Below, piece by piece: positions 62,204-64,000 of a stretch of DNA of 64,000 bases (its first letter is position 1; the number at the start of each line of letters is the position of its first letter). Source of the DNA: Serratia surfactantfaciens (GTDB lineage: Bacteria > Pseudomonadota > Gammaproteobacteria > Enterobacterales > Enterobacteriaceae); contig NZ_CP016948.1 in the NCBI RefSeq assembly GCF_001642805.2, positions 3,472,001 to 3,536,000 of the forward strand, given 5' to 3'. The notes below the pieces were generated by a model. The model saw only the letters and a list, made by a program, of their open reading frames with translations. It ran no database searches and was not told where the DNA came from. Position numbers and translations under genes: made by a program.

Positions 62204-62773
62204 ATGTTGAACCTCGACCGCAATAATCTGCCCCTCCTGAGCGAAGATCTGCTCAAAAAGCAACGCACCACCCTGCTGATCATCGCCTTCCTGCTGCTGG
62301 CCGGCGGCATACTGTGCCTGGTTAATCCTTTCGCCTCCGGCGCGGCATTGAGCATCGTGGTGGGCATCCTGCTGCTGTTGAGCGGCGCCGGGCTGATTAT
62401 CGCCATGATCGCCAATCGGGCGCAGAATACCTGGCCGATGATCGGCGGCATTTTGCTGGGCGTGGCCTACCTGATTATCGGCTATGTGTTCATCACCAGC
62501 CCGCTGGCGGGCATTTTGGCGCTGGCGGTGTACCTTGCCGTGCTGTTCGCGCTCGGCGGCATCGCGCGCCTGGCGGCTGGCTATATGCGCCGCGGATTGC
62601 CGGGCAACTGGCTGCAGTACGTCATTGGCGTACTCGATTTGATCATCGCCTGGATGCTGATCGGTTCAGGCCCGGCGGCGTCGGTCACGCTGGTGACGGC
62701 GATCGTCGGCATCGAGATGCTGGTCAGCTCCTTTGCGCTGTTCCAGGCGGCGAACCTGTTTAAAAAAAGCTAA
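62204..62773 (+). CDS. HdeD-like membrane protein (DUF308)
   Basis: The 189-residue protein has six predicted membrane segments in three repeated pairs, starting LLIIAFLLLAGGILCLVNPFASGAALSIVVGILLLLSGAGLIIAMI. This is the HdeD/DUF308 layout. HdeD of E. coli is an acid-resistance membrane protein, but the role of this homologue is not established. It stands alone between actS and the right-edge gene, with its own terminator. Confidence 0.83.
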   Translation: MLNLDRNNLPLLSEDLLKKQRTTLLIIAFLLLAGGILCLVNPFASGAALSIVVGILLLLSGAGLIIAMIANRAQNTWPMIGGILLGVAYLIIGYVFITSPLAGILALAVYLAVLFALGGIARLAAGYMRRGLPGNWLQYVIGVLDLIIAWMLIGSGPAASVTLVTAIVGIEMLVSSFALFQAANLFKKS

Positions 62774-62831: not shown

Positions 62832-64000
62832 CTAAGGCATTCTTATTGCGTAACGCCATTCCCCAATCGTTGAACCTATACCATCGAGAGAACGTAGGTG
62901 AATACCAAAGTATTGATTATCAAAAATAGCCGCATAGCCGACGTACTCGGCGGAAAACGAGACAAAGCAATAAACGTGGTCAATCTCCTTAGGAGCGCCA
63001 ATCGGTCCAGAGACACAAATATCTCCCGGTACCAGACTCGCGCGATTGGTTATCTTCTGCCATCCCTGCTCCAGAGCCCATTCAACGAAATAATCAACAT
63101 TAATAGACTGCATGCTGCCAAGCTGCGGATAAGGCAGGCCACAGAGCTTAAGGCAACTGACCTGGTGTGCAACGCAGGCATTACTTGTCGCGGTAGGGCT
63201 GTATTCCGGCACAAACCAGTCTTCTACTGTTTCCCTGATTGAACGGTAATCTTCTTTAAACATCCCGACAAACCGTTCAGCATTGCTAAGAAATGGCTCA
63301 TTCCACATCATTGCATCAGCCAGTTGCACGGCAAACGGTGCATCTATCGTGACCTTTGTTTTGGGCATCAGTTGCAATATCAGAGCGAGTTCCTGAGTAT
63401 CACTATATTCTTTAACAACATGACTTTCTCCCGATTTCGACGAGATAACCACCGTCGGCGTTCCCTTTCCATTACTACCCAACATAACACCAGATATATC
63501 TTCGATTTTCATCGGCAAACTAAAAGGCAAATTTTCTTTGAATAACTCTCTACCATATGCTTGGATTGTTTCAAAACTCACCGTTGCCCCCAAGCTTGCA
63601 GAACCTGCAATGACCTCATAGGTCACGCCATATCCGATCCCCCTAATTATTTTTTTCTTATTTTTACTCCATGGGCTAACGCCAAGCGCTTCTACTGCGG
63701 CAATGGAGGCCTCTCCGATAGAATCTTTTCCACCGACGTCTGCACAGATTGCATAGATATGATTATTTCTATAGCTTATTTTAGCCATATCTCCCATATT
63801 CACAGCAACCCCGGTGATCTTCTTCCAGTTACCTGGAATAACAAAATAGGGAATAATACGTGCATTAACATAATCTCCCTCACCTCGCCAACCATTCCCT
63901 CTTCTTAAGCTGGTTTCCTTTTGTCCTGTCGGATCGATGTCCTCCGCATCAGGACTGCCATCGGCATCCGTATCCGCATCGGCAATAATTAAAACATGGC
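62832..64000 (-). CDS. Two-domain protein: GH75 chitosanase-like plus CHAP/NlpC-like domain (partial, N-terminus outside window)
   Basis: The frame is open from the TAG at 62832 to the window edge, so a GTG at 63803 is not the true start. The part near the edge has an Asp-rich segment of DxDxDGxxDxxD type, as in Ca-binding TSP3/EF-hand loops. Next come NARIIPYFVIPGNWKK and ICADVGGKDSIGEASIAAVEALG, a GH75 chitosanase-like core whose Asp and Glu are 9 residues apart (counted from the GTG: Asp22, Glu31). The last 130 residues hold SNACVAHQVSC (Cys210), IDHVYCF (His276) and IFDNQ (295-296), spaced like a CHAP/NlpC cysteine peptidase. Its DNA is AT-richer than the rest of the window, which suggests lateral transfer. 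Confidence 0.65.
   Translation of the reverse strand, partial: HVLIIADADTDADGSPDAEDIDPTGQKETSLRRGNGWRGEGDYVNARIIPYFVIPGNWKKITGVAVNMGDMAKISYRNNHIYAICADVGGKDSIGEASIAAVEALGVSPWSKNKKKIIRGIGYGVTYEVIAGSASLGATVSFETIQAYGRELFKENLPFSLPMKIEDISGVMLGSNGKGTPTVVISSKSGESHVVKEYSDTQELALILQLMPKTKVTIDAPFAVQLADAMMWNEPFLSNAERFVGMFKEDYRSIRETVEDWFVPEYSPTATSNACVAHQVSCLKLCGLPYPQLGSMQSINVDYFVEWALEQGWQKITNRASLVPGDICVSGPIGAPKEIDHVYCFVSFSAEYVGYAAIFDNQYFGIHLRSLDGIGSTIGEWRYAIRMP

Follow-up and report, generated by a model that had tools for sequence, protein, structure and literature searches.

The right end of a 64,000-nucleotide stretch of the Serratia surfactantfaciens genome (G000:C1:3472001-3536000, hereafter the window; G000 is the window's own genome) carries the greater part of a gene for a 420-aa protein (P0001), in which a glycoside hydrolase family 75 (GH75) domain is fused to a domain with an NlpC/P60-CHAP-type fold. 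A gene for a predicted lipoprotein lies next to it, past the window edge, and the two likely represent a horizontally acquired cassette. In the reading favored here, to which a probability of about 45% is assigned as a whole, the GH75 half would cut the glycan strands of peptidoglycan and the second half would cut its peptides; a type VI secretion system (T6SS) would likely deliver the fusion protein into rival cells, and the neighboring lipoprotein would protect the producer as an immunity protein, blocking the GH75 half in the periplasm. This toxin–immunity reading is kept ahead of that of a phage-type lysin (see below) because the two-gene cassettes are mobile, the linkage of the partners is specific, and the lipoprotein changes fast.

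Domain Architecture of the Fusion Protein

The minus-strand open reading frame (ORF) ending at 62832 leaves the window at its right edge (Table 1). Its N-terminal part matches the Pfam family Glyco_hydro_75 with 28.1 bits, i.e., above the gathering cut-off of 27, and has the fold of V-Csn, a GH75 chitosanase of a soil virus (PDB 7TVL-7TVP; PMC9485262). All four conserved acids of GH75 are kept: D43, D45, D119, and E128 correspond to D34, D36, D148, and E157 of V-Csn. The Pfam match, the fold, and the residues D119 and E128 bear out the GH75-like polysaccharide hydrolase core with an Asp/Glu pair proposed in an earlier note on this DNA. The Asp-rich segment, taken in the same note for a calcium-binding one, turned out to be the acid motif D43-A44-D45 of the GH75 domain itself, so a separate calcium-binding segment was ruled out.

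The second domain is filed under NlpC/P60-CHAP by fold only, since the Pfam NLPC_P60 and CHAP profiles gave no match at E <= 10 either with the whole protein or with its last 155 residues. Its structural model matches NlpC/P60-CHAP-type structures in a structure search, and C307, H373, and N393 are invariant in the alignment of relatives, their Cys-His-polar order fitting a papain-like fold. These residues would probably make up the catalytic triad of a predicted cell-wall peptidase, in agreement with the Cys-His-Asx domain of the peptidoglycan peptidase type noted earlier. The two domains are separated by a module of ~60 residues (window 63345-63512), which is absent from the homologs P0033 and P0039 and doubled in P0023.

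Table 1. Coordinates of the fusion gene, its domains and key residues, and the neighboring genes (window positions unless a locus or the genome is named).
Feature	Position	Strand	Remark
GH75–NlpC-type fusion gene, residue 33 to stop	62832..64000	-	Window part of the 420-aa gene
Fusion gene, whole	L002:333-1595:-; ATG at genome 3,536,094	-	Start 94 bases past the window edge
GH75 domain, residues 33-187 of 1-187	63534..64000	-	Remainder past the window
D43-A44-D45 acid motif	63960..63968	-	Matches V-Csn D34/D36
D119 (63738-63740) and E128 (63711-63713)	63711..63740	-	Match V-Csn D148/E157
NlpC/P60-CHAP-type fold, residues 265-420	62835..63302	-	Invariant residues and structure matches
C307, H373, N393	63174-63176, 62976-62978, 62916-62918	-	Invariant residues; putative triad
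Predicted lipoprotein gene, 240 aa	L002:1669-2391:-; genome 3,536,168-3,536,890	-	Wholly past the window
Flanking gene, 189-aa membrane protein	62204..62773	+	Left border of the variable interval

The 54 homologs found belong to Serratia (66-92% identity), Pseudomonas (45-47%), and Microcystis or represent unnamed metagenome proteins, which are numerous; the closest named ones (92%) come from S. marcescens. A further precomputed Pfam domain is present in 11 homologs (eight of these were rescanned), and nine of the 11 combine GH75 with Amidase_2, Amidase_3, CHAP, or PG_binding_1. P0043 harbors the GH75 and NlpC-type modules in swapped order, P0052 combines the NlpC-type module with a glucosaminidase and Amidase_3 in the absence of GH75, and P0056 possesses TPR repeats. 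Mainly because the relatives mix GH75 with wall-hydrolase domains, it seems probable by association that GH75 acts here on peptidoglycan rather than on chitosan. A chitosanase-like enzyme directed against fungi, insects, or chitosan food, with the second domain opening other walls, is quite improbable: chitosan is a substrate of GH75 enzymes including V-Csn and all four acids are conserved, but no signal peptide was seen by eye, and the GH75 partners in the relatives are mostly bacterial-wall domains.

The Lipoprotein Partner

The partner is a predicted lipoprotein of 240 residues (lipobox LSGC), encoded upstream of the fusion gene on the same strand at a distance of 73 bases. Of the immunity gene suggested in the earlier note, this much stands: there is an adjacent gene that could have such a role. 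The search for its family returned 15 matches, the named ones all from Serratia or Pseudomonas. In the Pseudomonas locus L011 and the phage contig L012, a homologous lipoprotein gene directly follows a stand-alone GH75 gene (179 and 178 residues, respectively), an order opposite to that in Serratia. Since GH75 stands alone in these loci, the lipoprotein tracks GH75, not the peptidase half. Genes for RadC, DUF3577, TraI, and an integrase are found in L011, an integrative element, and L012 carries phage tail and virion genes. The link between the lipoprotein family and GH75 recurs in three settings, namely Serratia, an integrative element of Pseudomonas, and a phage contig. Between Serratia and L011, GH75 is 54% conserved, whereas the lipoproteins share 25% identity (E 3e-15). 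The linkage is kept in Serratia, L011, and L012, broken in the Serratia genome G022 and some S. marcescens, and was not seen beside cyanobacterial relatives.

A lipobox pattern occurs in 7 of the 27 same-strand GH75 neighbors of at least 60 aa vs. 12 of the 180 other ORFs of at least 100 aa (Fisher 0.005; 18 loci), or in 7/21 if neighbors of at least 100 aa are counted. Certain of these loci are related (L002/L014, L011/L012, L020/L021/L023); L022, L024, L035, L037, L038, and duplicates were left out, and not all of the seven lipoproteins resemble the Serratia partner (those of L013, L015, L019, and L030 do not). The enrichment is a hint only. On the Rhizobium plasmid L034, the gene after GH75 appears lipoprotein-like by eye but does not fit the pattern and was scored as negative.

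Lipoprotein-like helical proteins are encoded after the GH75 genes in L030:605-2433 and L034:4710-6162. No similarity between them and the Serratia partner was detected, and an hhalign comparison of single sequences lent no support to their placement in the same family (probability under 1). In G017 (L015:7828-9936), only the GH75 part is encoded before a stop; ahead of it lies the gene of another predicted lipoprotein, which is larger (408-459 aa, depending on the start codon) and has no convincing match in Pfam.

Genomic Context and Distribution

The two-gene interval has a GC content of 0.425 vs. 0.606 for the window. It is bounded on one side by the gene of the 189-aa membrane protein, which we take to be HdeD-like, and on the other by the genes of a 2OG-Fe dioxygenase and a class-V aminotransferase-type enzyme, all of them unrelated genes found in many Serratia genomes. 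The region holds 10 promoter-like sites, close to the 6.2 expected by chance (standard deviation 2.3).

The fusion gene is present in three of the 30 Serratia species genomes, its G017 copy being cut short by a stop at about residue 193, and the lipoprotein gene in two, with none in the other 28. In a class-wide sample, one of the 369 genomes matched, namely the window's own. In the genus of the Pseudomonas locus, GH75 was matched in 4/398 genomes, three of these matches being distant, and a broader GH75 profile matched 3/398 genomes of a phylum sample, the own genome included. The Pfam profile PF07335 matched none of the 398 phylum genomes, the own genome and the controls being also unmatched, hence this result is uninformative. 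A pattern search of the genome collection yielded 15 stretches, three of which are relatives (Microcystis, Cyanobium, Pseudomonas).

Both flanking genes are kept in 13 of the 19 Serratia loci (in six, the left flank was unmatched). One of the 13, G022, possesses the pair; in the other 12, the space between the flanks, 243 to 2961 bases long, is occupied by other genes, so the pair resides between the conserved flanks in 2/14 loci including G000. The contents of this variable site (L067-L078, between the presumably HdeD-like and the dioxygenase genes) include OmpA-like and acetyltransferase-like genes, as labeled by eye.

Sporadic and low in GC, the segment is likely acquired, as was supposed in the earlier note. 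The larger acquired cluster expected there past the window did not materialize: the island consists of two genes only between unrelated, widespread Serratia genes. A larger T6SS cluster past the window is likewise ruled out, VgrG, TssB, and PAAR being more than 0.9 Mb off. A housekeeping wall-remodeling enzyme of the host is very improbable in view of the presence in three of the 30 species, one copy being interrupted, of the low GC and the variable insertion site, and of the export signal not seen by eye.

Export and Delivery

Judged by eye and by hydropathy, with no predictor run, the fusion protein appears to lack a signal peptide. Near the start of P0001 and its 54 homologs, no 15-residue stretch exceeds a hydropathy score of 1.77. 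This score alone is not decisive, since the GH75 proteins L030 and L032 with apparent signal peptides score 1.59 and 1.70, i.e., within the family range (the third such protein, L031, scores 2.32). On visual inspection, the top-scoring stretches usually include charged residues and form part of an early GH75 strand (in P0001, PVVMIKDDGHVLIIA). The apparent absence of a signal peptide suggests an exit from the cytoplasm by injection or lysis.

A genome-wide search for TssB, VgrG, and PAAR in the own genome found two, three, and one match, respectively; TssB is also present in G017, G022, and the genome of L011. Neither Rhs nor holin genes were found beside the fusion gene, where they were looked for by eye in the neighborhood ORF lists only. 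T6SS delivery is possible in proteobacteria, and the T6SS is unlikely as the route of the whole family.

Several observations weigh against the toxin–immunity reading. The nearest TssB, VgrG, and PAAR matches are 0.91, 0.92, and 1.76 Mb away from the island, so the check for VgrG or PAAR genes near the fusion gene, recommended in the earlier note, came out negative. No TssB was found in the Microcystis and Cyanobium genomes with full-length relatives, and no matching lipoprotein is encoded beside these relatives. The G022 copy of the lipoprotein gene is broken into two frames (L014:7338-8062), while the adjacent GH75–NlpC gene is intact. The lipoprotein clusters of 136 and 151 aa make up 27 of the 89 sequences of five S. 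marcescens-type clusters; the 136-aa cluster (15 sequences) has the first half as in the split gene of G022. Split and short lipoproteins are odd for strict immunity, which would require these strains to have another means of protection or to refrain from delivering the toxin. The fold of the lipoprotein adds no support: its model, with a predicted local distance difference test score (pLDDT) of 48, is too poor to search, and there is no believable solved relative. Finally, chitosan is the substrate of V-Csn and its acids bind glucosamine, as described in the cited text (PMC9485262); their counterparts in the Serratia protein may thus favor a de-N-acetylated glycan.

Viral GH75 Genes and the Lysin Alternative

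Somewhat unlikely is a phage-type lysin kept by the bacterium, which would stay cytoplasmic until the cell is opened by a prophage, by another bacteriocin, or in altruistic lysis, the lipoprotein being a spanin-like accessory or a regulator. A lysin would more easily explain a broken lipoprotein gene beside an intact enzyme gene and the relatives in cyanobacterial genomes where no TssB was found, and the relatives do show mixed endolysin-type modules. Moreover, the phage contig L013 (8762-10473) encodes a GH75 + Amidase_2 protein matching lysis families after a 74-aa hydrophobic ORF, and in L019 (9929-10893), the gene next to GH75, overlapping it by 4 bases, is a weak holin match (E 0.0024). 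However, visual inspection showed no holin gene adjacent to the Serratia gene, the PHROGs spanin matches of the lipoprotein are weak (E 0.027) and confined to its start, and an integrative element carries the pair as well.

In L020 (9132-10354), a V-Csn-like gene overlaps a 92-aa hydrophobic ORF, but no holin family is matched by either small ORF. Overall, the viral GH75 genes of L019, L020, and L013, with V-Csn-like ones among these, overlap or adjoin small hydrophobic ORFs. These genes may represent lysis enzymes rather than metabolic helpers; the main text of the V-Csn paper does not mention peptidoglycan, endolysin, lysis, or holin (PMC9485262). The phage collection contained no match with the GH75 of P0001, L011, or L020, and neither the viral contigs, searched with P0001 alone, nor PHROGs matched P0001; PADLOC gave a chance-level match only (E 0.08).

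A broader and rather tentative proposal takes all of the following together: GH75 is also a peptidoglycan glycan-cutting module common to endolysins and mobile toxin cassettes with lipoprotein immunity, the 'auxiliary metabolic' chitosanases of soil viruses are lysis enzymes, and the Serratia protein is a two-headed toxin built of lysin modules. Its odds were lowered slightly because 'Chitosanases-like' domains are listed among the WHIX effectors described below.

Comparison with Known Systems and Implications

The NlpC fold is known from Tse1 of Pseudomonas aeruginosa, a T6SS effector with the immunity protein Tsi1. Unlike the fusion protein, Tse1 is a small single-domain protein; the sequence identity in the alignment is 14%. 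V-Csn, as far as its description in the cited text goes, is a single GH75 protein regarded as a metabolic helper, whereas the Serratia GH75 domain shares its polypeptide with an NlpC-type domain and has a lipoprotein partner. The Acinetobacter baumannii protein Tae17 (PMC11796386) is a two-headed T6SS effector directed at the cell wall, which combines in one protein a glycan-cutting and a non-glycan wall-cutting activity, both of them predicted in the present case. However, Tae17 represents a lytic transglycosylase and amidase delivered with its own VgrG17; the Serratia domains differ, and there is no VgrG nearby. The WHIX T6SS effectors can also carry two wall toxins, their toxic domains comprising 'Chitosanases-like' (101 proteins) and NlpC_P60-like (22 + 222) ones; the passages on them do not name the family of the 'Chitosanases-like' domain, and GH75 is not stated there (PMC12135965). 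These effectors are built on WHIX and have their own immunity protein for each toxin, whereas WHIX was not recognized here, though no WHIX model was run.

The fusion also resembles modular phage endolysins, with their mix-and-match wall hydrolase modules. Four Streptococcus phage endolysins have been labeled 'Amidase_5 & NLPC_P60 & Glyco_hydro_75' (PMC12294143). In the one of these four phages checked, P9903 (L085:21234-22079), the GH75 label was rejected: it scores 14.8 bits against the cut-off of 27, falls on the NlpC-type domain, and the profile comparison was empty. Hence, the P9903 endolysin is not a GH75 endolysin.

Thus, both domains, two-headed T6SS wall effectors, and the 'glycoside hydrolase family 75 protein' label given by NCBI to some Serratia relatives are known already. 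The earlier note knew of no described enterobacterial protein with exactly this layout; no functional description was found, but the NCBI label shows that databases already contain the layout. The main text of a Serratia-wide T6SS survey (its supplements being outside the scope) does not mention GH75, chitosanase, or glycoside (PMC12165300). No paper with 'glycoside hydrolase family 75' and 'type VI secretion', or 'GH75' and 'NlpC', together was found in the literature searched, with subscription papers and preprints outside the scope. As far as this literature shows, the GH75–NlpC combination as a wall cutter with a lipoprotein partner is new.

If true, the toxin–immunity reading would add GH75 as a wall-targeting toxin module, described as such in no searchable paper found, and provide a candidate family of lipoprotein immunity proteins that is testable at once. 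It would also call into question whether viral GH75 genes represent metabolic helpers or lysins. In a wider sense, two-headed wall toxins bear on how bacteria resist attack on their walls.
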